This document shows, piece by piece, positions 50,414-63,942 of a stretch of 64,000 nt of DNA; the first letter of the stretch is position 1, and the number at the start of each line of letters is the position of its first letter. Source of the DNA: Candidatus Kryptonium thompsonii (GTDB lineage: Bacteria > Bacteroidota > Ignavibacteria > Kryptoniales > Kryptoniaceae); contig LDXX01000004.1 in NCBI GenBank assembly GCA_001442925.1, positions 127,001 to 191,000 of the forward strand, in the 5' to 3' direction. The notes beneath the pieces were generated by a model. It was not told the DNA's origin, did no database searches, and saw only the letters and a list, made by a program, of their open reading frames with translations. The translations under genes and the position numbers were made by a program.

Positions 50414-50638
50414 TTAAGTTTCATCCTCAGACTTATGAACTGGTGGAAGCGACGAGCCCCCTAAACATCTTTTGCGATACTCAATTATCCGCTCAACAAC
50501 TTCATCGACACTTTCCTTAACCATAATTTTTTTCCCCGTCGTTAAAGCTATGATTGTATCAGGCGAAGCTTCAAGATATTCGATCAATTCAGCGTTTATA
50601 ACAATTTCCTGGCCATTTAATCTTGTTACCTTGATCAC
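50414..50638 (-). CDS. flbD: FlbD-family flagellar protein
   Basis: A 74-residue protein found at the end of flagellar operons in Firmicutes and others. The sequence MIKVTRLNGQEIVINAELIE followed by YLEASPDTIIALTTGKKIMV matches the family closely, then KESVDEVVERIIEYRK. The GTG at 50638 is chosen as start because it gives exactly the usual MIKVTRLNG N-terminus and has AAGG 7 bases before it; an upstream TTG exists but adds an unusual extension. The exact function is not known. It follows flgE by 63 bases, with a hairpin in the gap. Confidence 0.88.
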   Translation of the reverse strand: MIKVTRLNGQEIVINAELIEYLEASPDTIIALTTGKKIMVKESVDEVVERIIEYRKRCLGGSSLPPVHKSEDET

Positions 50639-50670
50639 TTTGCGCACCTTATTTAATTTCAAAATTTATC

Positions 50671-50701: not shown

Positions 50702-52753
50702 TTAACGCTTTAAATTAGTAATCTCTTGTAAAAATTCATCGCTTGCTGTTATCACTCGCGCATTCGCCTGGAAACCACGCTGTGCAATTATCATACGCGT
50801 AAATTCCTCCGCAAGATCAACATTCGATTGTTCAAGAACCCCAGACATTATTTTAGACTGAATCGCTGAACCAGGTTCATCAATTATCGGGGCACCAGAA
50901 TTTGCGGAGATATCAAACATGTTATCACCAACCCTCAACAATCCAGTTGGATTATTAAATGTTGCCACGAGAATTTGAGCGAGAACACGGACAGTCCCAT
51001 TTGAAAATACACCAAGGATTTTACCATCTTCATTTACGGAAATTGTATTCAAAAATCCAAGCCCATATCCATCTTGGTCCGCAATCAAACTTGATGTTCC
51101 CTCCATTTGAGTTATCCCAGCGAACTCCCCAATCTTTCCAGGATCAATCACTATATCAAGGATATTGGCGGAGTTATCACCTGGATCAATTCTCAAGGTT
51201 GAACTCCCGTCATCAAAAAAGAAACTTCTTATCGAGCCATCGGAATTAAACACAATTTTCCCACTTCCACCTGCAACTATAACCTCATTCCCACCAACCT
51301 GCGCTGTCCATATCCATTGATTTGGTGTGGTCGCATCCTTTACAAATTTCAAGGTTATATTATGTCTGTTTCCAAGCGAATCATAAACAGTCACAGTAGT
51401 GGATGCTTCAACATCTTCGGCTTTCTGAACTTCAAGCCAGTTTCCAGGTTTGTTTTCAAAAATTGAGTTAAAATTATCTCTTCCTGTTGCGGAGATGTTA
51501 AGGTCAGTGATTTCATTGGCTTTGCCACCATCCGCATTAACAACAAGTGCTCCAGTGTTCTTGTCAATTTCAACTCCCTTTAGATTATTTATCCTAAATG
51601 CATTTTTAACAGCATCGGCAAAATCCTTATAAGTTGATGTAGAGCTCACAGTAAAATTAACAGTTGATATCGCTTTACCTCCAACCTTTCCATCAATTGT
51701 TATCACATCTCCAGCCACAAGCCCAAGATCATTCCCTTGTGCATCTCTTAAATTGATCAAAAGGTCATCAGCTCGTGCAACGCGGGAAAATTTATCGGAA
51801 CCTTTGCTTGAGTTTGCTGTATAATTTCCATTCAATCCAGAAAGAGCGGTTTCAAAATTACGATTATTGCTTGATATCGAAACATTTTGATTAACGATTG
51901 AAGTCAAAACAATTCTACCTTGCGAATCAATTGAAGCCGTCAACGAGCCTGCGAAATCATTGTTGATCTCATCAACCAAATCTTTCAAGGTGCGGAAATT
52001 GCCATCCCCAACTCCACCATCCTTGCTCACATAAGTGTAGGTTTTAACTTTAGTTCCATCTTGAATTGTCACAGTTGTCGAACCCGAGATCATACCAGTT
52101 ATAATTGTATTTGCTGTTCCAGTAGCGAGAAGATCATTTATATCAGAGTTACCATCCTCAACTGCATAGACTCGTGAGCTTTGAAGTATATTCCCTTTTG
52201 GAACGCCACCAGCGTTAAGATTACCTGTGAGCTTTATGAGTGATGTTGCTTTTGCTGGTGATTTTTGACCAAAGGGAATTTTTATATCTTCAAGCTTTGC
52301 CCCCGGAGGAACAACACCAGAAGAATCAGCCATCTTCCCTTGAACAATAGCGCCCGTTGCTGAGTCAACAAGGTAACCGTTTGCATCAAATCTAAATGCC
52401 CCGGCTCTTGTGAAATAATTCCTTCCTCCCTTTTTCACGATGAAAAATCCATTACCTTGAATCGCGAGATCTGTTACCTGACCTGTGGTTTCAAGGTTTC
52501 CTTGTGTAAAGATCGTGTCAATTGAACTTACATTCATCCCAAGTCCAACCTGAAGTGGATTGGTTCCACCAGATTCCGCTGAAGGTTGAGTAGCCCCGCG
52601 AAGCATCTGTGCAAATGCCTCACTGAAAGAAACACGAGCCGCTTTAAATCCGATGGTGTTGATGTTCGAGATGTTATTTCCGATTACATCCATCATAATC
52701 TGATGATTTCTCAAACCAGAGACGCCAGAGAATAACGACCTAAGAAATGACAT
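50702..52753 (-). CDS. flgE: Flagellar hook protein FlgE
   Basis: Forms the hook joining basal body and filament. The N-terminal rod-like part begins MSFLRSLFSGVSGLRNHQIM followed by MDVIGNNISNINTIGFKA, the flagellar basal-body rod signature. The C-terminus QSNVDLAEEFTRMIIAQRGF closes with the other half of the D0/D1 region. At 683 residues it is longer than E. coli FlgE (402), with a large inserted middle (about 150-560) of beta-rich domains, as in many FCB and epsilon-proteobacterial hooks. RBS AGGAGG 8 bases before ATG. Its 96-base leader carries two hairpins. Confidence 0.95.
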   Translation of the reverse strand: MSFLRSLFSGVSGLRNHQIMMDVIGNNISNINTIGFKAARVSFSEAFAQMLRGATQPSAESGGTNPLQVGLGMNVSSIDTIFTQGNLETTGQVTDLAIQGNGFFIVKKGGRNYFTRAGAFRFDANGYLVDSATGAIVQGKMADSSGVVPPGAKLEDIKIPFGQKSPAKATSLIKLTGNLNAGGVPKGNILQSSRVYAVEDGNSDINDLLATGTANTIITGMISGSTTVTIQDGTKVKTYTYVSKDGGVGDGNFRTLKDLVDEINNDFAGSLTASIDSQGRIVLTSIVNQNVSISSNNRNFETALSGLNGNYTANSSKGSDKFSRVARADDLLINLRDAQGNDLGLVAGDVITIDGKVGGKAISTVNFTVSSTSTYKDFADAVKNAFRINNLKGVEIDKNTGALVVNADGGKANEITDLNISATGRDNFNSIFENKPGNWLEVQKAEDVEASTTVTVYDSLGNRHNITLKFVKDATTPNQWIWTAQVGGNEVIVAGGSGKIVFNSDGSIRSFFFDDGSSTLRIDPGDNSANILDIVIDPGKIGEFAGITQMEGTSSLIADQDGYGLGFLNTISVNEDGKILGVFSNGTVRVLAQILVATFNNPTGLLRVGDNMFDISANSGAPIIDEPGSAIQSKIMSGVLEQSNVDLAEEFTRMIIAQRGFQANARVITASDEFLQEITNLKR

Positions 52754-52849: not shown

Positions 52850-53239
52850 TTAAATTATCACAGCTCCATCAATATTTGTAAAGACATGCTCTTTAAGGCT
52901 ATCACTATCAACCACAGTTATAACAGTTCTGTTCTTTACATTCACGATAAATGCGATATCCCTTAACAAAATTAGAACATCCCTTGTATTTTTTTGCTCC
53001 GCACGAAACAAGGCATCGTTCAAAAGTTTAACATCCTCTTCGTTTAATTTCACCTCCCTTTCCTCCATACGCTTTAAAGCATGATTTGAAAACTTTAATT
53101 TCTCGATCTCACTCTTAAAAATATCCTCAAACCTTGTCCCAAACTCTGGGACCTTTACACCCGTGCCTTCCTTCCTTAAAGTCTCAACTCCACCAGCTGG
53201 GATAAATGGAACCTTCACGCCATTTACTTCAATCGCCAT
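52850..53239 (-). CDS. TIGR02530-family flagellar operon protein
   Basis: A 129-residue protein matching the 'flagellar operon protein' family TIGR02530, found between flgD and flgE in Clostridia and other groups. The core is FSNHALKRMEEREVKLNEED (near residue 55-74), then a strand-rich part ending VVDSDSLKEHVFTNIDGAVII (in two parts). Function not established. The ATG at 53239 has GAGGGT 6 bases before it and lies 11 bases inside the flgD end; the further in-frame ATG-like start at 53251 gives no better site. Confidence 0.85.
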   Translation of the reverse strand: MAIEVNGVKVPFIPAGGVETLRKEGTGVKVPEFGTRFEDIFKSEIEKLKFSNHALKRMEEREVKLNEEDVKLLNDALFRAEQKNTRDVLILLRDIAFIVNVKNRTVITVVDSDSLKEHVFTNIDGAVII

Positions 53240-53930
53240 TTTTACCCTCATACTTTATTTCAACTATATCAGCGATGTTGAATTCAACTCCATCAATCAA
53301 TATCACTGCACCATCTGCTTTATATCTCACACCTTCAACAATCCCGCTGATGTAAGTATTCACAACCACTGGTTTCCCGTCTCCATCAACCGCCTCAATG
53401 CTAACTCTGTAATTTCCAGCTGGCAGATAATTACCAAGTTCATCTTTCCCATCCCATTTGAAGTCATACCTACCGCTTTTTCTCTCGCCAAGCTTAAAAG
53501 TCCTCACTACATTTCCAGAGGAATCAAGAATTTTAATTTCAATTGATTTAACATCGCCCTTCAATTCATATCCAAATTCCACACCTTTCTCAGACTCAAG
53601 TCTCAACGAATCCCCATAAACAGTGACCCTCTTTCCGATCAAATTAGCAACCAAAGCATTTGTGATCGAGCGATTTGTCGCATAACTTGCGTCGATGCTT
53701 TTCAAAAGATTTGAATTGATGTTGTAAAGTTGCTCCACCGAGCTAAACTGGGCAAGCTGGCTTGCAAATTCTGTGCTTTGAATTGGATTCATCGGATCTT
53801 GATAATTAAGTTGCGTTATCAAGAGCTTCAAAAAATCATCCTTTCCAAGAATCGCCTTATCAGAGCTTTGAACACTGCTTCCTGTTGAAGGAATGCCTCT
53901 AAAATTTTGAATTGAATTAATGTTCTCCAC
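53229..53930 (-). CDS. flgD: Flagellar hook-capping protein FlgD
   Basis: Scaffold for FlgE assembly at the growing hook. Typical N-terminal motif FLKLLITQLNYQDPMNPIQS (residues about 33-52) and LAQFSSVEQLYNIN. The C-terminal half is the FlgD Ig-like/Tudor domain (GRKSGRYDFKWDGKDELGNY, near residue 150-170). The GTG at 53930 is chosen because AGGAGG lies 8 bases before it; the in-frame GTG at 53939 overlaps the Shine-Dalgarno itself. Length 233 is normal. It follows fliK after 14 bases and overlaps the next gene. Confidence 0.93.
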   Translation of the reverse strand: MENINSIQNFRGIPSTGSSVQSSDKAILGKDDFLKLLITQLNYQDPMNPIQSTEFASQLAQFSSVEQLYNINSNLLKSIDASYATNRSITNALVANLIGKRVTVYGDSLRLESEKGVEFGYELKGDVKSIEIKILDSSGNVVRTFKLGERKSGRYDFKWDGKDELGNYLPAGNYRVSIEAVDGDGKPVVVNTYISGIVEGVRYKADGAVILIDGVEFNIADIVEIKYEGKNGD

Positions 53931-53944
53931 GATTCTCACCTCCT

Positions 53945-55405
53945 TTAAATTATTGCCTCTATTAAACTGCCACCGTAAAACTTAACAGCATCAAAAGAGT
54001 CAAAAATTTTCCTTTTGCTTGTTTTCTTCAAAAACTGCCCTCGATCTGAGTTTGAAGAATCAAAATAATTATTGTTAAGATTTTCACCCACAAGCAACAC
54101 CCCAAGCTTTTCTGGATTTACATTGCTTGACTCAAGAGCTGTTCTTAAATTATTAAACCCCGACTCAATTAGTTGCTTTGCCTCAAGATTTTTAACCTCA
54201 AACAAAATCTTTACCCCATTTTCGCCTTGTGAAATTTTGACAACAACTTTACCAATCTCCTCTGGCTCAACCCTCAAAACAACTTCACCGTGCGCTAAAT
54301 CACCATTCTTAGAAACCAAAGCCCTCACCACATCAGGAATTTCTTGGGCTTTCACAGATATCATAAAATCTCTAACATTGACTTTATCGCCAGCATCCAC
54401 GGCATCAATAAAACTTAAATTCCAATTGCCAACTTTTTCATAAACCTTTTCAAATTTAATGCTACCAAGCTCAAACTTCTTAAATTCATGCTGTAAATCA
54501 AATTCATTTCTGGCTTGATTATGCTCAAAACTTACCGAAGCAACATCTTCCCTCACAGTTTTAACATCTGTATTATGCTCTTGATTTTTAAATTGAGATT
54601 GGGATTTTTTTGAACTAAAAACAGGTTCTTCAACATTGACTTTATTATTCTCTTTTAAAATTTCCCCAACCCCAGCCTTATAGATTTTAACATCGTTCTC
54701 AAGTGCAAGCTCCCTTAAATACGGCTCAAATTTTAAATTTAAATTCTCAACACTTTCATCCTTTCTTGAAACCAATTTAGATTTTAAATTAACCTCACTT
54801 TGCAAATTTTCTGGAGCAGTAATTTCAACTTTGCCATCCTTTACATCCCCATATTTAACTCTATTTGCAACGACAAATTCACGAATTGCTTCATTTAAGT
54901 CAACTCCTTCACTCTCTCCTTTAACAATAAGCTTGCGAATTTCCTGCTTCGGATTAATTTTATCTTTCGAATTTAAATTTTGAAGCGATTTTAAAGCTTC
55001 CCCTTCCTTCGCCAAAAAGAATGGCTCAATAGCAGAATTTGGACTTGCTTTAACTTCCCTCGATTCTTGATTAGGCATAAAAGCATTAAGTTGCTCTGCT
55101 ATCTGGGAATTAGGATTTAGCTTAAATAAAATCAGCGCCTGTGATTCCGAAGTTTCTTTCTCATCTACACTTTGATAACCCTTTAGCTCTGAAATGGGAT
55201 TGAAATAGAATTGTTCTAAAGATTCCTCAGTCTGTGGAAGGTAAATTGATTCAAAATTTTCCGTTTTAACATTTGAGAGAAATTGAGCCAAGAAAAGTCC
55301 AAGGATATCACCAAAATTTGTCGTTGCTTTTTTATAAAAAATTCCATTTTGCTCAGTTTGATTTAAACCTAAATTATTTAGTATGTCGATTAAATTTAAT
55401 TTCAT
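53945..55405 (-). CDS. fliK: Flagellar hook-length control protein FliK
   Basis: Secreted molecular ruler that sets hook length. The C-terminal FliK domain (about residues 365-450) includes LRVEPEEIGKVVVKISQGEN and FNNLRTALESSNVNPEKLGV, as in Flg_hook family members. The first 360 residues are low-complexity, Asn/Glu/Lys-rich and poorly conserved, as usual for FliK. Length 486. Start ATG at 55405 overlaps the stop of the MotE-like gene (ATGA). The position before flgD fits the Firmicutes order. Confidence 0.88.
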   Translation of the reverse strand: MKLNLIDILNNLGLNQTEQNGIFYKKATTNFGDILGLFLAQFLSNVKTENFESIYLPQTEESLEQFYFNPISELKGYQSVDEKETSESQALILFKLNPNSQIAEQLNAFMPNQESREVKASPNSAIEPFFLAKEGEALKSLQNLNSKDKINPKQEIRKLIVKGESEGVDLNEAIREFVVANRVKYGDVKDGKVEITAPENLQSEVNLKSKLVSRKDESVENLNLKFEPYLRELALENDVKIYKAGVGEILKENNKVNVEEPVFSSKKSQSQFKNQEHNTDVKTVREDVASVSFEHNQARNEFDLQHEFKKFELGSIKFEKVYEKVGNWNLSFIDAVDAGDKVNVRDFMISVKAQEIPDVVRALVSKNGDLAHGEVVLRVEPEEIGKVVVKISQGENGVKILFEVKNLEAKQLIESGFNNLRTALESSNVNPEKLGVLLVGENLNNNYFDSSNSDRGQFLKKTSKRKIFDSFDAVKFYGGSLIEAII

Positions 55406-55980
55406 TTCAACTTTGAAAGTTTACTGGCTTTTGCGGTGTTAATTTCAGAGAGTATCTTTGCAGCTTGACGCCTCTGCATATTTAAAATAATTTGAAGTGC
55501 TTCATTTTCAGGCATGCTCTCAAGAATTCTTGCAGCTGCTTCTGGCTCCATCGACTCGTAAATTTTCGCCATAGCCTTGATTTTCTCATCTTGTTGATTT
55601 AAAACTTGGCGTTGCAGTCTTTCAACAATCAAATTCTTTTCCCTTATTTCAGCCTTAAGCTCATTAATTATCTTGTTAAGAACAAGGACGCTGTCTTTAT
55701 ACCTTTTTAATTCCGCAACTGCTTCGTTATATAAACTTTTCAAACTATCAAGCTTATACGCTTCAACATATTCAAGTCCAATTGAACTTGTGTCCTCCCA
55801 TATGACACCAAGCGAATCATTTTTAAGTTTAAGCGAATCAACCATCGCTAAAACAGGGGTTGATTTTGGAATTGGTCTGAAAAGTTCAGGATAAAGCTTT
55901 GAAAGAACATACATACCCTCAAAAATCGTCACAAAAGAGAAAACAAAACCAAGTATATAGCCAAAGATCGGTTTTTCCAT
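55402..55980 (-). CDS. MotE/YlxF-like flagellar protein
   Basis: A 192-residue protein with one N-terminal membrane helix (about 7-26), a coiled coil (about 75-130) and a C-terminal MgtE-N-like domain (MAKIYESMEPEAAARILESM followed by PENEALQIILNMQRRQAAKI). This layout is that of MotE (a chaperone of the stator protein MotC in rhizobia) and B. subtilis YlxF. It lies between fliJ and fliK as YlxF does. The gene follows fliJ by 2 bases and overlaps fliK by 4. Role in flagellar stator assembly is inferred from family and position. Confidence 0.83.
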   Translation of the reverse strand: MEKPIFGYILGFVFSFVTIFEGMYVLSKLYPELFRPIPKSTPVLAMVDSLKLKNDSLGVIWEDTSSIGLEYVEAYKLDSLKSLYNEAVAELKRYKDSVLVLNKIINELKAEIREKNLIVERLQRQVLNQQDEKIKAMAKIYESMEPEAAARILESMPENEALQIILNMQRRQAAKILSEINTAKASKLSKLK

Positions 55981-55982
55981 TT

Positions 55983-56411
55983 TTATCTGTTAGATATTGT
56001 TCTATATGCAATGGAATCCAAAAGTGTTTGCTCTTTCTTTTGGAAATCCTTCAAAATCTGCTCGTTAAATTTTTGCTTCAATTTTTCAATCATACGCTTA
56101 TTTTGATTCGTCTTTATCAAAATATCACGCCTTTTCTCTTCTTCCTTTAAAACCCTCTCAAGCGCATTTTTCTGCTTTTCAACCTGTTCAGCAACTGCGT
56201 TTAAATAAGCATATTGAATTTGTAAATCAATCACCTTAACCTTTTCCTCAGCCTCTATATTCTCCATCTGTTGCATCTTTTCAGCTTCAAGGTCTTCTAA
56301 CAATTTTTCGGCTTTTTCACGAATTACTTTAATTTCCGAAAGATCCCTTTTATATTTTTTTTCTTGGACTTGACGAACCTTAAGAACTGGATCAAGTTTG
56401 AAACGAGCCAT
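55983..56411 (-). CDS. fliJ: Flagellar export protein FliJ
   Basis: A 142-residue coiled-coil protein that links the ATPase FliI ring to the export gate. FKLDPVLKVRQVQEKKYKRD at the start is the typical FliJ N-terminus, and nearly all of the chain is a two-helix coiled coil with high Lys/Glu/Gln content. Ribosome-binding site AAGGTAAAGAG before ATG. It follows fliI by 9 bases. Assignment rests on length, helical character and its place in the operon. Confidence 0.86.
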   Translation of the reverse strand: MARFKLDPVLKVRQVQEKKYKRDLSEIKVIREKAEKLLEDLEAEKMQQMENIEAEEKVKVIDLQIQYAYLNAVAEQVEKQKNALERVLKEEEKRRDILIKTNQNKRMIEKLKQKFNEQILKDFQKKEQTLLDSIAYRTISNR

Positions 56412-56420
56412 CTCTTTACC

Positions 56421-57746
56421 TTAAATTAATTTTGCAAGTTCAATTAAACGATTAACCGAATCTTCAAACTCCGCTTTCTCTTTCATATCCTGTCTTAAAA
56501 ACTCTCGTATTTTTTCAATCATCTGCAACGCCTTGTCAATTTTCGGATTACTACCTCGAACATAAGCCCCGATGTTTATCAAATCCTCCGCTTCCCTGTA
56601 TGTTGCAAGTATGTCTATTATTTTTTCAGCTGACTTTTTATGCTCAGAGCTAACTATATCTGGCATAAGCCTACTTATGCTCTCAAGTGGCTCAATGGCT
56701 GGATAATGGCCCATATTTGCAAGTTTTCGTGAGAGAACAATGTGACCATCAAGTATCGACCTTGAAAAATCAGCAATAGGCTCATTGAAATCATCACCTT
56801 CAACGAGAACTGTGTAAAGCGCCGTGATACTTCCCTTTGAAGAAGTTCCAGCACGCTCAACAAGTTTCGGAAGCAACGCAAAAACCGAAGGGGTATAACC
56901 TTTCGTTGTTGGTGGCTCACCTATCGCAAGCCCAACTTCACGCTGAGCCATTGCAACACGAGTAAGCGAGTCCATCATAAACATTACATCAAACCCTTGA
57001 TCTCTAAAATATTCTGCGATAGCGGTTGCAACAAGTGCGGATTTAACTCTTATAAGCGGGGGCTTATCACTTGTTGCAACTACGACAACGCTTTTCGAAA
57101 GCCCTGAATCGCCAAGTTCCTTCTCAATGAAATCTCTAACTTCCCTACCTCGTTCACCAATTAAAGCGATTACATTCACATCTGCGTTCGAATGCCTTGC
57201 GATCATTCCCATAAGTGTGCTTTTGCCAACCCCGCTTCCTGCAAAAATTCCAATTCTTTGCCCTTTTCCGCACGTAAGAAGCGAATCTATAGCCCTTATG
57301 CCTGTAGCTATCGGTTGAGTTATCCTGCTTCTTTCAAGTGGCGCCGGTGGTTGATTATAAATTGATCTCATTTCATCAGCTTCAATCCATCCTTTCCCAT
57401 CAATTGGATGACCAAGCCCATCTATAACTCTACCAAGAAGTTTCCGTCCAACTGGAATTGAGAAAGTTTTCCCCATCGCAACTATTTCGCTCCCCGGGCT
57501 TATCCTATTTATATCTCCAAGTGCCATTGAAAGAACACGATTATTTTTAAATCCGACCACCTCCGCAAGGCAAATCACTTCATCATTCCTTGACTTAATA
57601 GCGCACACCTCACCAAGCGAAGCCGACGGACCAATTGATTCAATAACAAGACCAATAACTTGCGTTACCCTTCCGTTAACCTTGACTAAATCAAGATGCT
57701 CGATCTTATCAAGATATTTTTTCATCCTTGCATCAAGATTTAACAT
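56421..57746 (-). CDS. fliI: Flagellum-specific ATP synthase FliI
   Basis: Hexameric ATPase that helps export flagellar proteins. Walker A is GSGVGKST (about residues 170-177), Walker B includes VMFMMDSLTRVAMAQRE (near residue 255), and the ATPase signature PSVFALLPKLVERAG is present. The C-terminal regions up to LAKLI are complete; length 441 is standard. Closest to F1-beta/FliI family, not to Rho. Gene sits between fliH (12-base gap) and fliJ. Confidence 0.95.
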   Translation of the reverse strand: MLNLDARMKKYLDKIEHLDLVKVNGRVTQVIGLVIESIGPSASLGEVCAIKSRNDEVICLAEVVGFKNNRVLSMALGDINRISPGSEIVAMGKTFSIPVGRKLLGRVIDGLGHPIDGKGWIEADEMRSIYNQPPAPLERSRITQPIATGIRAIDSLLTCGKGQRIGIFAGSGVGKSTLMGMIARHSNADVNVIALIGERGREVRDFIEKELGDSGLSKSVVVVATSDKPPLIRVKSALVATAIAEYFRDQGFDVMFMMDSLTRVAMAQREVGLAIGEPPTTKGYTPSVFALLPKLVERAGTSSKGSITALYTVLVEGDDFNEPIADFSRSILDGHIVLSRKLANMGHYPAIEPLESISRLMPDIVSSEHKKSAEKIIDILATYREAEDLINIGAYVRGSNPKIDKALQMIEKIREFLRQDMKEKAEFEDSVNRLIELAKLI

Positions 57747-57758
57747 CTTCTCACAGCC

Positions 57759-58481
57759 TCAACCAAGTAAGTTTTCAATTAACGAAAATTGCGTTGATAT
57801 TCTCGAATCAACATTTCCAAGCTCACTTTCAACCACACATCCACCTCTTTCAATCGCTGGGTCTGCTTCAACGATAACCTCGCTTGTTGAGTCAAGCATT
57901 TGCAAAAGCTCTGGTTTCAATTCTTTTATAAGTTTCTCGTCCTCAGGGTTGACCCTTAACTTTATCTTTTCAACGCCAACAACTCTTTTCACCGCCTCCT
58001 TCACCTGATTCAAGATGAAATCATTATCTTTTTCAATTTCCCTTTTGACAATTTTCTCAGCAATTTTAATGGCAAGTGAAAGAACGAAATTCTCAATTTT
58101 CGTCCCGAACGATTCAACTTCATTACAAAAATTTTTTAAAACCTGCTCCAAAATGGCGATACGCTCCTTCAATTCATCGTTTACTTTTTCCCTCAAAATC
58201 TTCTCCGCATCTTTAAATCCCCTTTGATATGCCTCCGCAATTTTCATCTCGTATTCATTTCTGATCTGTGCTATTATTGCGTCAATATTAACTCCCTCTT
58301 CATTTTTTCTTTCATCCTGCACGAAATCAATTTCATCGCTTGACCCCACTTCAATTTCGCTTTTAACACCCTCATCAGATAATTTCAAAATATCAAATTC
58401 AACAGGTTCTTCAATTTTTAATTCCTCAAACAAAAACTTCTCCTCTGGCAACCGATTTTTTATGACTTTCCTAGTAAACAA
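57759..58481 (-). CDS. fliH: Flagellar assembly protein FliH
   Basis: Regulator of FliI at the export gate. The middle carries a helical stretch with YEMKIAEAYQRGFKDAEKI, followed by the C-terminal FliH/V-ATPase E-type domain (VLSLAIKIAEKIVKREIEKD, then EVIVEADPAIERGGCVVES). The start is not fixed: no ATG exists near the N-terminus. The TTG at 58481 is chosen because two AGGAGG-like sites lie just before it; TTG at 58508 is an alternative giving nine more residues. It overlaps the fliG end by 11 bases. Confidence 0.85.
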   Translation of the reverse strand: MFTRKVIKNRLPEEKFLFEELKIEEPVEFDILKLSDEGVKSEIEVGSSDEIDFVQDERKNEEGVNIDAIIAQIRNEYEMKIAEAYQRGFKDAEKILREKVNDELKERIAILEQVLKNFCNEVESFGTKIENFVLSLAIKIAEKIVKREIEKDNDFILNQVKEAVKRVVGVEKIKLRVNPEDEKLIKELKPELLQMLDSTSEVIVEADPAIERGGCVVESELGNVDSRISTQFSLIENLLG

Positions 58482-59499
58482 TGTCCTCCTCACCTCCTCT
58501 TCCCGCAATTATAATTTCCTGATTCTCCTCAAGCCGTTTTATAACCTCAACAATTCTCATTTGAGCAGCTTCAACCTCACGCAATCTCACAGGACCCATA
58601 TATTGAATCTCTTCTTGCAACATAGCAGCAGCTCTTTCCGACATATTCTTGAAAATTTTCTCTTTTATCTTTTGATCCGCTCCTTTCAAAGCAAGTGCAA
58701 GATCCTTCTTATCAACTTCACGCAAAATTCTTTGTATGCTTCTATCATCAATGTAAATGATGTCCTCAAACAAGAACATCAATCTCTTTATCTCATTTGC
58801 AAGATCTGGATCTTGTTCCTCTATCCTTTGCAAAAGTTCTCTTGCTTCCTGCGAGCCAACCTTGTTAAGAATTGCAGCCACGGTCCTTGATCCACCAGTT
58901 GCGCTAACCTCCTGACTTAAAGATGTTTCAGCCATAACATCAATCACACTCTCAAGCTCGGTTAAAATCGTTGGAGAAATCTTCCCGAGTTTCGCAATTC
59001 TATATACAACTTCAACCCTCAAATCTTCGGGAAATTGACTTATAACCTTTGCAGTTTGCTCAAGCGGTAAATGAGAAAGAACTAAAGCTATCGTCTGTGG
59101 ATGTTCCTTTTGGAGAAAATTCGCAAGCTGCGTCGCATCTGCTTTCTTCAGCGCCGAAAATCCTTTTATCTGAGTCATACTATGAACCTTTTCAACTATC
59201 TCCGATGCTTTTTGTGAACCAAGCGATTTCTCAAGCAACGTTTTCGCATATTCAAATCCTCCAACGATAATATATTCCTGCGCCTTCATCATCTGGAAAA
59301 ATTCTTCAATAACAGCCTGAACAACAGACGCTGGAATCCCCTCCAACGAAGAAATTTCTATCGCAAGCTGTTCCATTTCTTGTGGCTCAAGATAGCGAAA
59401 AACTTTTGAGGCCGTTTCAACATCAAGCGCAAGCAGTAAAATTGCTGCTTTCTGCTTACCTGTTAAATTTTCATATTTTAAATTCAACGCTTTTGCCAT
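58471..59499 (-). CDS. fliG: Flagellar motor switch protein FliG
   Basis: Rotor protein that transmits torque and sets rotation direction. Start KALNLKYENLTGKQKAAILL, the middle EHPQTIALVLSHL motif (near residue 130) and the C-terminal torque helix region (ALKGADQKIKEKIFKNMSER, about 285-304) are all typical. Conserved charged torque residues appear in QKIKEKIFKNM and DLALALKG. Length 342 normal. It overlaps the fliF end by 16 bases, giving a tight fliF-fliG coupling as in other flagellar operons. Confidence 0.95.
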   Translation of the reverse strand: MAKALNLKYENLTGKQKAAILLLALDVETASKVFRYLEPQEMEQLAIEISSLEGIPASVVQAVIEEFFQMMKAQEYIIVGGFEYAKTLLEKSLGSQKASEIVEKVHSMTQIKGFSALKKADATQLANFLQKEHPQTIALVLSHLPLEQTAKVISQFPEDLRVEVVYRIAKLGKISPTILTELESVIDVMAETSLSQEVSATGGSRTVAAILNKVGSQEARELLQRIEEQDPDLANEIKRLMFLFEDIIYIDDRSIQRILREVDKKDLALALKGADQKIKEKIFKNMSERAAAMLQEEIQYMGPVRLREVEAAQMRIVEVIKRLEENQEIIIAGRGGEEDIVY

Positions 59500-61064
59500 T
59501 TCTGTCTCTCCTCCTCAAGTAGCCAAACTTTAATTAACCTCGCTGCTTGTTCAGAATCTTCACGAATATATTCCCTCACCTTTTCTTTAATTTGCTCCTT
59601 TTTCACTCTTTCAGATTCAAGCTCTTCTTCGTCAACTTGTTGAATTGCCTCAACTGCAACTTGCTCCGGTCCCTTAAGTGGTGCTTGGGGTTGAATGGTT
59701 GGAAATTCTCTAATTTCAACAGTTGGAATTTCCTTCCTCGTCTTCAACTTCCCAAGAAGTGAAAACACAAGTATGATTGACCCAACTATTGCAAGCCCAA
59801 TTACAATTTTTTCAATAAGCTCACGCCAACTCTCTTTTTTGTCCTCCCGTTGCACAAACCCAAGCTCTTCGCTCGCTGGCTCAAACGCCGTGCTGATAAC
59901 AGAAACTTGATCATTCCTATCTGGATTAAAACCAACTGCATTTTTAACTATTTCAGTTAACTTTTGAATTTGCTCCTCATCCCGGGGAATGTATTCAACC
60001 TTTCTAACCCCGCCTACTTCATTTACCTTGTAAGTTCCATTTACAAGGACAGCAACTGAAAGGCGTTTTATATTCCCGACACCTTCAACTATCCTCTGAA
60101 GCGTCCTATTAACTTCATAGTTTGTTATCGTATTCGTTCTCTGTGAGCTTGTGCTTGCAAATGTTGAATCAACTGAACTACTTCTCTCCTGCGTCGTTTG
60201 TTCGCTTCTTATAACAGTTTTATCTGGATCATACTCCTCTATAGTCTTTTCAACTTGAGTGAAATTAAGTTCTACATCAACTCTAACTATTGAATTCCCC
60301 GGACCAACAACGGCGTCGAGTAAGCTTTGAACTTTATCAGTTAGATATTGCTCAACACTTCTTTTTAGCTCATACTGCTTACTGCTTATCTTGGCAAGTG
60401 GATCTGAATCGGAATTATCAGATAAAAGCCGCCCTCTTGAATCAAGTATCGTAACATTTTGGGGTTCAAGCCCCTCAACGCTACTTGCAACAAGGTAAGC
60501 GATGCTTTGAACATTGTCCCGACTCAACTTCGCTCCCTGCTTTAATCTGAGTATGACAGATGCTGTCGGTTCTTTTTGATCTTCTTTAAAAAGAGTCTTT
60601 TCAGGGATAACGATATGAACCCTTACTGCTTCAATCCCGTCGATTTGCAAAATTGTCCTCGCAAGCTCTCCTTCAAGTGCGCGTTTGTAATTTATCTTTT
60701 GAACAAAATCTGAAACCCCAATATTACTTTTATCAAAAATTTCATACCCAACAATACTTGAATTTGGCAAACCCTCGCCCGCAAACTGAAGCCTTAACTC
60801 ATAAATATTTTGCTTTGGAACAAGTATAGTTCGACCACCATTTTCTAATCTATAACTGATTTTCCTCTCCTTCAATTTCTCAACTATCTTGCTCGCATCC
60901 TGTGGCTCCAAATTAGAAAACAAAATACCATATTCAGGCTCACGAACCCACGAGATCAAAAATGCAAAACCAACAATTGAAGCAACTGCGACTCCGATAA
61001 GCAAAACTTTCCGAGCAGTCGATAACCTCCCCCAAAACTCTTTTATCTGAGCAAATGAACTCAT
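59484..61064 (-). CDS. fliF: Flagellar MS-ring protein FliF
   Basis: Builds the MS ring in the inner membrane. Two transmembrane helices: residues about 18-40 (VLLIGVAVASIVGFAFLI) and about 438-456 (IVIGLAIVGSIILVFSLL). Between them is the periplasmic part with the YscJ/FliF motif ILQIDGIEAVRVHIVIPEKT (about 143-162). The C-terminal end (EEELESERVKKEQIKEK to RQKWQKR) binds FliG. Length 526 fits. The start MSSFAQIKEFWGRLS is standard. Confidence 0.94.
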   Translation of the reverse strand: MSSFAQIKEFWGRLSTARKVLLIGVAVASIVGFAFLISWVREPEYGILFSNLEPQDASKIVEKLKERKISYRLENGGRTILVPKQNIYELRLQFAGEGLPNSSIVGYEIFDKSNIGVSDFVQKINYKRALEGELARTILQIDGIEAVRVHIVIPEKTLFKEDQKEPTASVILRLKQGAKLSRDNVQSIAYLVASSVEGLEPQNVTILDSRGRLLSDNSDSDPLAKISSKQYELKRSVEQYLTDKVQSLLDAVVGPGNSIVRVDVELNFTQVEKTIEEYDPDKTVIRSEQTTQERSSSVDSTFASTSSQRTNTITNYEVNRTLQRIVEGVGNIKRLSVAVLVNGTYKVNEVGGVRKVEYIPRDEEQIQKLTEIVKNAVGFNPDRNDQVSVISTAFEPASEELGFVQREDKKESWRELIEKIVIGLAIVGSIILVFSLLGKLKTRKEIPTVEIREFPTIQPQAPLKGPEQVAVEAIQQVDEEELESERVKKEQIKEKVREYIREDSEQAARLIKVWLLEEERQKWQKR

Positions 61065-61083: not shown

Positions 61084-61380
61084 TTAAACCTGCAAACGCA
61101 TCAACTCCTTATACGCTTCAAGCATTTTATTTCTCACCTCCATCAAAAGCTCAAAACTTGTTTTCGCCTTCTCAACTGCAATCATAACATCATGAATGTC
61201 GCTTATTTCACCAGTTATCGCTTTTTCAATCGCCTCGCCCGCTTCGTTCTGAAGCTGATTCACATCTTTGATGAACTCCTTCAAAACGCTTTCAAAATTT
61301 TCAACACTTTCCTTCGCTCTCTCCCTTACCTCAGTTTTATAAAATTCGCCAGAAGCTATTAAACCAACTTGTTTAAGCAT
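61084..61380 (-). CDS. fliE: Flagellar hook-basal body complex protein FliE
   Basis: A 98-residue rod/MS-ring junction protein. The C-terminal part (TGEISDIHDVMIAVEKAKTS then FELLMEVRNKMLEAYKELMR) is the conserved FliE helix, and the rest is helical. Length fits. Starts 3 bases after the unknown small gene and ends 19 bases before fliF. The order flgB-flgC-fliE is conserved in many bacteria, here with one extra gene between flgC and fliE. Confidence 0.94.
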   Translation of the reverse strand: MLKQVGLIASGEFYKTEVRERAKESVENFESVLKEFIKDVNQLQNEAGEAIEKAITGEISDIHDVMIAVEKAKTSFELLMEVRNKMLEAYKELMRLQV

Positions 61381-61383
61381 AAC

Positions 61384-61596
61384 TCAAACCCTTTTGTTAA
61401 TTATTTGATGATCAACCTCAATAACCAACCTACCTCGAGAATCATACTGATAATACTTTTTTATCTCTTCAACGCTTTCAGGAAAAAGTTCCTCAAAGAA
61501 TTTAACCTCTTCCCTACTTAAAACTTCAGCAGGGCGTGAAATTTCCTTAACCTGAAAATTCAAACTGTAAAAATTGTTTACTCCTTCAACTTTCAT
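61384..61596 (-). CDS. Small unknown protein between flgC and fliE
   Basis: A 70-residue soluble protein, not recognised. It begins MKVEGVNNFYSLNFQVKEI, and the rest is acidic and ends EVDHQIINKRV. No membrane segment. The ATG at 61596 is decided by GGAG 7 bases before it; an upstream in-frame ATG lies inside flgC. Its start is 1 base after the flgC stop and it ends 3 bases before fliE, so it is clearly part of the flagellar operon. Standard flagellar operons have no gene at this place. It may be a rod-assembly accessory specific to this lineage. Confidence 0.75.
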   Translation of the reverse strand: MKVEGVNNFYSLNFQVKEISRPAEVLSREEVKFFEELFPESVEEIKKYYQYDSRGRLVIEVDHQIINKRV

Positions 61597-61597
61597 A

Positions 61598-62095
61598 TCA
61601 GATCTCCAATGCATCTTTTGCCATGTTTTTTGAAGCGTTAAAAGCAGTTACATTTGCCTCATACGAACGAGTCGCCGAAATCATATCAACCATCTCAACA
61701 ACTATGTTGACATTTGGCATATGCACATAACCATTCTCGTCCGCATCAGGATGCTCTGGATTATAAACAAGCCGTTCAGGGGAATTATCTTCAACAACTT
61801 CAGTTCGCACTCCTCTCACCGCATCTCTGCCATCTTCGAATTCAACAAAATTAGAAGAGATGTGTTTCTCGTTCGTTACCTCAAGCCCCATAGTTTCCTT
61901 TTTCAAAACATTTGCAAAGTTCCCCTCAACCGAAGCCCTCATCACCACAACCTTTCTTTTGTAAGGAGTTCCCTTCTCCGTCCTTGTTGTTTCAACATTT
62001 GCGATATTTTCAGCAATTGCTGTCATCCTTTTTCTTTGAGCGCTCAACCCCATAGCACTTATGTTAAATGACGCGAAAAGCCTTTCCAACTTCAT
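61598..62095 (-). CDS. flgC: Flagellar basal-body rod protein FlgC
   Basis: Proximal rod component. The N-terminal rod motif is FNISAMGLSAQRKRMTAIAE followed by NIANVETTRTEKGTPYKRK, and the C-terminal part is NVNIVVEMVDMISATRSYEA followed by NVTAFNASKNMAKDAL. Length 165 is slightly above normal (about 135-150) from an insert around residues 70-110. Start ATG at 62095 overlaps the flgB stop (ATGA). Confidence 0.95.
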   Translation of the reverse strand: MKLERLFASFNISAMGLSAQRKRMTAIAENIANVETTRTEKGTPYKRKVVVMRASVEGNFANVLKKETMGLEVTNEKHISSNFVEFEDGRDAVRGVRTEVVEDNSPERLVYNPEHPDADENGYVHMPNVNIVVEMVDMISATRSYEANVTAFNASKNMAKDALEI

Positions 62096-62523
62096 ACGCC
62101 TCCTCCTTTTATACTTTTTTGAATTCCCCTGAACGACTCCGCTATCAACCTTGACGCAAGTTTATATCTTATTTGATTCTTCGCAAGTTCAGCCATCTCA
62201 TAATCAATATCCACATTATTTACACCACTTGAAAGCGGATCAGGATTATATTCCGATGGTTCCATCACAGTTTCAGGTTGAACCGCATCAAAATCTTTCA
62301 CACCAATTGAGAAATGCTTTTCATGCGTTTTCGCACCTTTTATAAATTCATTCCCCAAACTCTTCCTAAGCTCCTCCTCAAACTTCACATCAACTCGTTT
62401 GTATCCTATAGTTGTTATGTTCGCAATATTAGATGCAATCGCCCTCTGCCTCAAAGAATATGCATCCAATGCTTTTTCAAGAAGCGGTATTTTCGTTCGA
62501 GCGAAAAGAAAAAACTTTAACAT
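62092..62523 (-). CDS. flgB: Flagellar basal-body rod protein FlgB
   Basis: First proximal rod protein, contacting FliE. The rod motif is PLLEKALDAYSLRQRAIASN followed by IANITTIGYKRVDVKFEEEL, and the end is VDIDYEMAELAKNQIRYKLA then SRLIAESF. Length 143. It has an excellent ribosome-binding site, GGGAGG 7 bases before the ATG at 62523, inside the gap after the 45-residue membrane protein. Confidence 0.95.
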   Translation of the reverse strand: MLKFFLFARTKIPLLEKALDAYSLRQRAIASNIANITTIGYKRVDVKFEEELRKSLGNEFIKGAKTHEKHFSIGVKDFDAVQPETVMEPSEYNPDPLSSGVNNVDIDYEMAELAKNQIRYKLASRLIAESFRGIQKSIKGGGV

Positions 62524-62536
62524 TTCTTATCCTCCC

Positions 62537-62674
62537 TTATTGTGCATAAAGTTCAAATTGAATTTCATCCGTTTCCGTTTCAAAACTCTTGACAAACCTT
62601 TTCCTTCTCCGCATAAGAACGAAGATAGAGATCAAAATTCCAACGAATCCGAGCGATAAAATCAACGCTCTCAT
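62537..62674 (-). CDS. 45-residue single-pass membrane protein at the head of the flagellar operon
   Basis: A short open frame between the sigma-54-like promoter and flgB. Read on the minus strand it starts MRALILSLGFVGILISIFVL, a clear membrane helix, followed by the basic stretch MRRRKRFVKSFE and an acidic tail ending ELYAQ. Topology with the basic stretch after the helix suggests the C-terminus in the cytoplasm. AGAAGG lies 7 bases before the ATG, and flgB follows 13 bases after the stop with its own strong site. No family is recognised. Size, codon pattern and site support a real gene. Confidence 0.7.
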   Translation of the reverse strand: MRALILSLGFVGILISIFVLMRRRKRFVKSFETETDEIQFELYAQ

Positions 62675-62721
62675 TTCTTAACCTTCTTTTATTTTGTTCA
62701 AACCTTCTCAAAAGGATTTAA

Positions 62722-62737
62722 TGCAAAATAAATGCCA
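62722..62737 (-). promoter_or_regulatory. Near-consensus sigma-54 promoter of the flagellar operon
   Basis: The minus strand reads TGGCATTTATTTTGCA, against the RpoN consensus TGGCAC-N5-TTGCA/T. Only the last base of the -24 box differs, and the invariant GG and GC pairs have the exact spacing. Transcription would start near 62711, giving a leader of about 37 bases to the 45-residue gene. Sigma-54 control of flagellar operons is common in Proteobacteria. The rpoN gene is not in this window. Confidence 0.65.
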
Positions 62738-62779
62738 CACCCAAAAATTGATTTTTACACTAAATTTAAAGCCACTGCC

Positions 62780-62817
62780 TATCCAACCCATGCAGAATAT
62801 TATACAGATGCTGGATA
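62780..62817. promoter_or_regulatory. Imperfect palindrome upstream of the sigma-54 promoter
   Basis: Arms TATCCA (62780-62785) and TGGATA (62812-62817) with a second inner pair GCA/TGC (62792-62794 and 62809-62811) enclose an AT-rich core with AATATT. It lies about 45-80 bases upstream of the -24 box, the usual distance for a sigma-54 enhancer-binding protein. It also overlaps the region before the rlmN promoter. Its role is inferred from position and symmetry. Confidence 0.4.
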
Positions 62818-62832
62818 ATATTAAGCACGGAT

Positions 62833-62864
62833 TTTGCTAAAAAGAGCCAGAATTAATAAATTTT
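62833..62864 (+). promoter_or_regulatory. Candidate FCB-type promoter of rlmN
   Basis: TTTG, 20 bases, TAAATTTT. The box matches 7 of 8 positions, with the start about 28 bases before the ATG at 62899. It explains the TTGCT-like string nearby that might otherwise be taken for a second sigma-54 site. Confidence 0.45.
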
Positions 62865-62898
62865 TTAAAAAATCACTCAATGTTGAAGCTGACTTACT

Positions 62899-63942
62899 AT
62901 GAAAACAGTTCAGAAAACATCGCTTAAAGGCTTAACCTTGTCTGAACTTGAAAAGTTTGTGCTTGAGCTTGGGTGGGAAAAATTCCGCGCAAAACAAATC
63001 TTTAAATGGCTATACAACAAACAAGTTGATAGCTTCTCTAAAATGAGCGACCTACCAAAGCACTATAGAGATGAACTTCAGGAGATAGCCGAAATAGACG
63101 AATTGAAACTTTTATCATTTGAAAGATCAAACTGCGATGGCACGATAAAGTTTCTATTTGAATTAAAAGACGGAGAAAAAATTGAAAGTGTTTTAATACC
63201 AGACGAATCCCGCCTTACACTTTGCATTTCAACACAAGTTGGATGTCCGATCGATTGTAAATTTTGCGCAACGGGAGCGATGGGATTTAGAAGAAATTTG
63301 ACAGCAGGTGAAATCGTTGACCAGTTAATACAGACACAAAAGCACACCGACAGAAGAATTACCAATATCGTCTTTATGGGAATGGGGGAGCCGCTTCTAA
63401 ACTTAAAAAATCTTCTCAAGGCAATCGATATAATAACAAGTGATGACGGTATAAGAATTGGGGCAAGAAAAATAACTGTCTCAACAGTTGGGATTCCTGA
63501 TAAAATTATAGAACTCGCAAACGCAGGGAAAAAAGTTAAAATTGCGCTCTCACTTCACACACTTGATGAAAACCTTCGCTCAAAACTCATACCAATAGCA
63601 AGTAAATATCCGATTTCATCTCTCATTGACGCACTAAAATACTACTACAACAAAATCGGCTTAAGAGTGACCTATGAATACATCGTTTTCGATGGTTTAA
63701 ACGATAGAGATGAAGATATCGAGAAACTTGTCGAGCTTGCCAAAATTATCCCATGCAAAATAAATCTCTTGAAATTTCACCCGGTTGACTTCATACGAAA
63801 GGAACCATATTTGAAACCTTCCACAAGGCTTGAAGAATTTGCCCAAAAACTTCGCGAACATAATCTTACCGTCTTTGTAAGAAGCAACGCCGGCGAAGAT
63901 ATAAAAGCAGCTTGTGGACAACTTGCAATTTTAAACCAATAA
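62899..63942 (+). CDS. rlmN: 23S rRNA (adenine-2503-C2)-methyltransferase RlmN
   Basis: Radical-SAM enzyme that methylates A2503 of 23S rRNA and A37 of some tRNAs. The cluster motif is CPIDCKFC (Cys116, Cys120, Cys123). The two catalytic Cys are Cys109 (LTLCIST) and Cys339 (AACGQLA). FMGMGEPLLN and SLHTLDENLRSKLIP are intact. The Gln in QIFKWLYNKQ supports RlmN and not Cfr. Length 347. Divergent from the flagellar operon. adk follows 22 bases after the stop. Confidence 0.97.
   Translation: MKTVQKTSLKGLTLSELEKFVLELGWEKFRAKQIFKWLYNKQVDSFSKMSDLPKHYRDELQEIAEIDELKLLSFERSNCDGTIKFLFELKDGEKIESVLIPDESRLTLCISTQVGCPIDCKFCATGAMGFRRNLTAGEIVDQLIQTQKHTDRRITNIVFMGMGEPLLNLKNLLKAIDIITSDDGIRIGARKITVSTVGIPDKIIELANAGKKVKIALSLHTLDENLRSKLIPIASKYPISSLIDALKYYYNKIGLRVTYEYIVFDGLNDRDEDIEKLVELAKIIPCKINLLKFHPVDFIRKEPYLKPSTRLEEFAQKLREHNLTVFVRSNAGEDIKAACGQLAILNQ

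Follow-up and report, generated by a model that had tools for sequence, protein, structure and literature searches.

We find it very probable that the 16-gene flagellar operon in the 64,000-nucleotide stretch of DNA analysed here (the window) is transcribed from an RpoN (sigma-54) promoter by means of an activator of the P0002 type acting on an upstream palindrome, as one of four such sigma-54 operons that precede a FliA step for flagellin. Control of flagella by sigma-54 and an activator is well known in Proteobacteria; the present host lives in hot springs and belongs to Kryptonia, a phylum that has been little studied. In the mechanism that we propose, a PAS histidine kinase encoded just upstream of P0002 would phosphorylate this NtrC/FlrC-type protein (REC-AAA+-Fis), which would bind the palindrome TGGCnAATATTnGCCA, usually in two copies 20–21 bp apart and 65–90 bp upstream of -24. 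Bound P0002 would open RNA polymerase–sigma54 at the flgB, fliL-fliMNOPQR-flhBA, flhF-flhG-fliA-flgFG and chemotaxis operons, and FliA from the third of these would drive flagellin from sigma-28 promoters.

The operon runs leftwards on the minus strand, from a 45-aa ORF through flgB, flgC and further genes to flgE and flbD. The control elements and genes are as follows:

62812..62827, minus strand: distal putative activator operator (UAS) TGCTTAATATTATCCA, 90 bp upstream of -24 and 21 bp from the proximal one
62791..62806, minus strand: proximal putative activator operator (UAS) TGTATAATATTCTGCA, 69 bp upstream of -24
62722..62737, minus strand: predicted sigma-54 (-24/-12) promoter TGGCATTTATTTTGCA, predicted +1 at 62711
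62537..62674, minus strand: 45-aa ORF, first gene, with a hydrophobic segment that looks membrane-like by eye; conserved in the genus, no Pfam match
62092..62523, minus strand: flgB
61598..62095, minus strand: flgC (rod protein family)
61384..61614, minus strand: 76-aa ORF between flgC and fliE, function not assigned, no Pfam match
61084..61380, minus strand: fliE
59484..61064, minus strand: fliF
58471..59499, minus strand: fliG
57759..58508, minus strand: fliH
56421..57746, minus strand: fliI-type ATPase
55983..56411, minus strand: fliJ
55402..55980, minus strand: MgtE_N-domain protein, which we take to be MotE-like
53945..55405, minus strand: fliK
53229..53939, minus strand: flgD
52850..53251, minus strand: putative flagellar protein (PF12611)
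50702..52753, minus strand: flgE
50414..50662, minus strand: FlbD-family protein

By gene content this is a true flagellar operon, as had been read from the window's letters before any search was made, and we infer that the 16 genes are continuous. The closest named relatives of its FlgB are from Candidatus Kryptonia, Chrysopegis and Thermokryptus. It is the 45-aa ORF, not flgB, that stands first, with flgB following from 62523. This ORF, which has a hydrophobic N-terminal half and a conserved C-terminus (FELYAQ), heads the operon in 7/7 genus genomes, and similar-sized ORFs ending in LGV head the flgB operon in family f2. The divergent gene at 62899 resembles rlmN by eye.

Reading the minus strand from 62737 to 62722 confirmed the site that had been reported there: TGGCATTTATTTTGCA differs from TGGCAC-N5-TTGCW at a single position (C to T at -21) and has GG at -24 and GC at -12, with the standard spacing of a 10-bp gap. 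If the A at 62722 is taken as -11, the predicted +1 falls at 62711, and the ATG at 62674 begins 37 nt later, in agreement with the distance of about 37 bases given in the same report. A search of the leader for RNA elements in Rfam gave nothing above threshold.

Upstream of the flgB operon stand two palindromes of the pattern TGnnnAATATTnnnCA, at 69 and 90 bp from the -24 element. The genome has 10 copies of the pattern, these two included, and a good sigma-54 site follows 68–90 bp downstream only at the copies of four flagellar and chemotaxis operons:

Operon 1: flgB operon (window, minus strand)
Operon 2: fliL-fliMNOPQR-flhBA (contig C3 of this genome)
Operon 3: flhF-flhG-fliA-...-flgF-flgG (contig C6 of this genome)
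Operon 4: chemotaxis operon with CheW and CheR (contig C4 of this genome)

The binomial probability of finding a sigma-54 site at 4/9 operator loci by chance is ∼6e-10 if 20 TGGCAY-N5-TTG per 347 kb on both strands is taken as the background. In six sister genomes, we examined 14 further copies that end in AGCCA, and every one of them stands before an ortholog of fliL, flhF or the chemotaxis operon (response regulator); TGGCAY-N5-TTGN lies 66–79 bp further on in 13 of them, and the remaining one matches less well. A looser pattern also picked up six other copies in these genomes, which had no flagellar gene and no good sigma-54 site downstream. The pairing of operator and sigma-54 site also occurs upstream of fliL in families f10 and f17. 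Thus, enhancer sites upstream of the promoter are present as conserved sequence, and we regard them as putative operators. To our knowledge, there is no published match to this palindrome.

The genome (2.59 Mb, 98.5% complete) contains an rpoN gene, on whose presence the sequence-only reading had depended; its product has all three sigma-54 domains (AID, CBD and DBD) and the RpoN box ARRTVAKYR. There are 11 strong sigma-54 activator domains (PF00158) in the genome, and we profiled two of these activators, P0002 and P0003, across genomes. P0002 (contig C6, 130052-131455) consists of REC, AAA+ (with GAFTGA and Walker A) and Fis HTH domains, and the gene just upstream encodes P0004, a REC-PAS-histidine kinase. 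The best solved matches of P0002 are other NtrC-family proteins, with FlrC (AAA+ domain construct) and FleQ scoring lower. Orthologs of P0002, called at E ≤ 1e-145 or as fragments of about 60% identity, are present in 36/37 flgB-positive genomes of the class against 10/63 flgB-negative ones (Fisher 6e-17). The one flgB-positive genome without an ortholog (G018) is 90% complete, and one of the flgB-negative genomes with an ortholog (G044) also has FliG and is therefore probably flagellated. In a tree, the orthologs included group as a single clade (support 100/100), separate from the five other activators of this genome that the tree contains. We consider P0002 a good candidate, and probably the right one, for the activator of the flagellar sigma-54 operons.

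The best surviving alternative accepts the promoter and the operator and assigns the flagellar role to another of the 11 activators, either P0003 (contig C3), for example, or one outside the two profiled. P0002 is not beside flagellar genes in its own genome and occurs in a family without flagella, and in family f2 the P0003 ortholog lies a few kb from chemotaxis genes. However, P0002 orthologs sit inside the flagellar/chemotaxis cluster in several families, 8–11 kb from flgB in ten genomes and adjoining chemotaxis genes in three, and the operator is commoner in genomes with P0002 (10/16) than in those without it (2/12; Fisher 0.02). P0003 itself was rejected as flagellar regulator on account of too narrow a profile, its clade being found in 17/37 flgB-positive genomes and missing from most flagellated families. 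We judge this alternative unlikely, and P0002 remains the preferred activator.

Six of the flgB-negative genomes with a P0002 ortholog belong to the family mentioned above (f12) and also lack FliG, which shows that the activator is not strictly flagellar. In 5/6 of these genomes the operator is present: several copies precede small lipoprotein-like genes, and two are near the activator gene. That operator and activator have been kept together where flagella are absent supports their pairing independently of flagella, and it is possible that the regulon has been rewired in this family. In f12 the palindrome, sometimes with a sigma-54-like site, was seen upstream of small lipoprotein or secreted-protein genes (L286, L288, L289, L298, L299), and the f12 activators have GAYTGA in place of GAFTGA in the sigma-54 contact loop (L215, L223, L224, L227, L233, L235).

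The TGGCATTTATTTTGCA match is not significant by itself, since 2 one-mismatch sigma-54 matches were observed in the window and 1.91 were expected from shuffles. Across the genome, where claims are based on genome searches and targeted stretches, there are 101 one-mismatch sites against 27 for the reversed pattern, a count we do not use as evidence because dinucleotide shuffles of the window predict about as many. The significance of TGGCATTTATTTTGCA comes instead from its conservation in seven same-genus genomes, where no other part of the intergenic region is as well conserved and in whose alignment 13/16 columns of the site are invariant, compared with 19/231 in the remaining gap, which is the flgB intergenic region minus the site and the operator block (Fisher 1e-10). 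The -24/-12 site is kept in 7/7 of these genomes; in the six others, the element upstream of flgB reads TGGCAC or TGGCAT, N5, then TTGCA or TTGCT. Comparison of the same interval in relatives, which had been suggested as a check, shows the conservation to reach beyond the genus. In family f2, which belongs to the same order, the flgB site is mostly TGGCACA-N2-CGTTGA and sometimes CGGCACA. The best sigma-54 score upstream of flgB is 13–15 of 15 in 40/40 FCB loci (Kryptonia, Ignavibacteria, KSB1, Calditrichota, Cloacimonadota, Kapabacteria and unclassified Bacteroidetes MAGs), in a few of which the best site lies more than 300 bp upstream and could serve a different gene, and it is ≤12 of 15 in 16/16 Firmicutes. 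These data support the view that TGGCATTTATTTTGCA is real and serves as an RpoN promoter of the flagellar operon.

If the operon were instead driven mainly by a housekeeping promoter of the sigma-70 or FCB type, the sigma-54 site would be secondary. Promoters of the sigma-70 family are poorly defined in this phylum, which leaves some room for such a promoter, but no match to a sigma-70 consensus was found within 62530-62910, which takes in the intergenic region, and the seven genus genomes share little of the intergenic sequence beyond the operator block and the -24/-12 site. We therefore regard a housekeeping promoter as quite improbable. The TTTG/TAnnTTT promoters that the sequence-only reading had assigned to other genes of the window find weak support: strict TTTG/TAnnTTTG occurs at 1/22 starts and relaxed TTG/TAnnTTT at 7/22, compared with 1.7 in base-shuffled controls. 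A chance -24/-12 match in AT-rich DNA, with which the match count is in accord, has a negligible probability given the cross-genome conservation and the paired operator, and for TGGCATTTATTTTGCA the genus alignment rules it out.

With the sigma-54 promoter preferred, we propose a broader view tentatively, at slightly less than even weight: sigma-54 control of the flgB operon may be ancestral in the sampled flagellated FCB lineages; one activator with its palindrome may, in the Kryptonia/Ignavibacteria class, govern nearly the whole set of flagellar and chemotaxis genes as a single sigma-54 tier; and f12 may have retained both, redirected to surface lipoprotein genes.

A point against the sigma-54 reading is that in three of the four flagellar and chemotaxis promoters of this genome, A or T replaces C at -12. 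The -12 C is likewise replaced, mostly by A, in the flhF (5/5) and chemotaxis promoters of the genus and in the flgB promoters of family f2 (L100:9288-9429, L101:9899-10000, L102:9346-9472; L251-L263; L046-L057); the flgB promoters of Kryptonia, unlike the flhF and chemotaxis promoters, retain TTGC. Possibly, the -12 element is systematically weakened in flagellar promoters.

A fliA-type sigma gene lies within the flhF operon. The consensus for sigma-28 (FliA) is TAAA-N15-GCCGATAA, and upstream of flagellin we recognized by eye ATTAAAGTAA-N13-CCGATAA, which is sigma-28-like and one base longer than the consensus. It is likely that the sigma-54 operons supply FliA and that FliA in turn drives flagellin. 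A second, divergent sigma-28-like promoter, TAAAGCTT-N11-TCCGATAA, also lies upstream of flagellin (L273).

The proposed control is of a known kind, with parts like those of FlrBC, FleSR and FlgSR, found here in a group for which open-access text yielded no description of it. In Vibrio (FlrBC) and Pseudomonas (FleSR), RpoN controls class III flagellar genes (PMC6504787, PMC12607845, PMC7064773). These systems resemble the one proposed for Kryptonium in using RpoN with a soluble PAS histidine kinase and a REC-AAA+-Fis activator, and in having sigma-54 promoters with upstream operators, flhF/flhG and a FliA tier below. They differ in a separate FlrA/FleQ-type tier, none of which was identified in Kryptonium. 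Moreover, in Kryptonium, fliF, fliL-flhA, rod/hook, flhFG-fliA and chemotaxis genes all have the same type of operator and promoter. In Vibrio, by contrast, FlrBC brings in the rod/hook genes after the export apparatus; because one type is common to all, the two-step order of polar flagellates is not visible in Kryptonium DNA. Campylobacter FlgSR, which also works with RpoN, is similar to the proposed system in that one two-component system serves the sigma-54 flagellar genes and FliA the late genes (PMC7064773, PMC11187230). The sigma-54 class of Campylobacter consists of rod/hook genes, whereas the one predicted for Kryptonium also takes in fliF, fliG and export genes, so that an FlgS-type assembly signal would need basal expression in order to act in exactly the Campylobacter sequence of steps.

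According to the accessible parts of the surveys, sigma-54 motility promoters have been described in Proteobacteria, Thermodesulfobacteriota, Planctomycetia, Deferribacteres and Opitutia (PMC12316311, PMC3162934), and those parts of PMC12316311 do not name Kryptonia, Ignavibacteria, KSB1, Calditrichota, Cloacimonadota or Kapabacteria. The description of Kryptonia calls the group motile and does not give its flagellar regulation (PMC4737851), the Caldithrix abyssi genome paper lists flagellar genes and mentions neither sigma nor rpoN, and we found no paper in open-access text that joins Ignavibacter-, rpoN and flagellar genes. The remark in the sequence-only reading that RpoN control of flagella is hardly described in this phylum group thus fits the open-access literature. 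Our results would bring under the sigma-54 flagellar programme several phyla for which we found no account of how flagella are regulated. The operator is defined and a candidate regulator is named, and both can be tested in flagellated relatives that grow in culture. The results also bear on the question of whether the sigma-54 control of flagella in Gram-negative bacteria is an ancestral trait.

Two further activators came to attention. In one, a sigma-54 activator domain is fused to a membrane protein that looks CHASE2-like by eye, and a consensus sigma-54 site directly precedes the next gene (L088:7066-9714, L007). The other is a receiver-less activator of 308 aa; the adjacent operon, which by eye resembles carbon monoxide dehydrogenase genes, is preceded by a perfect sigma-54 site (L094:6943-10535, L003).
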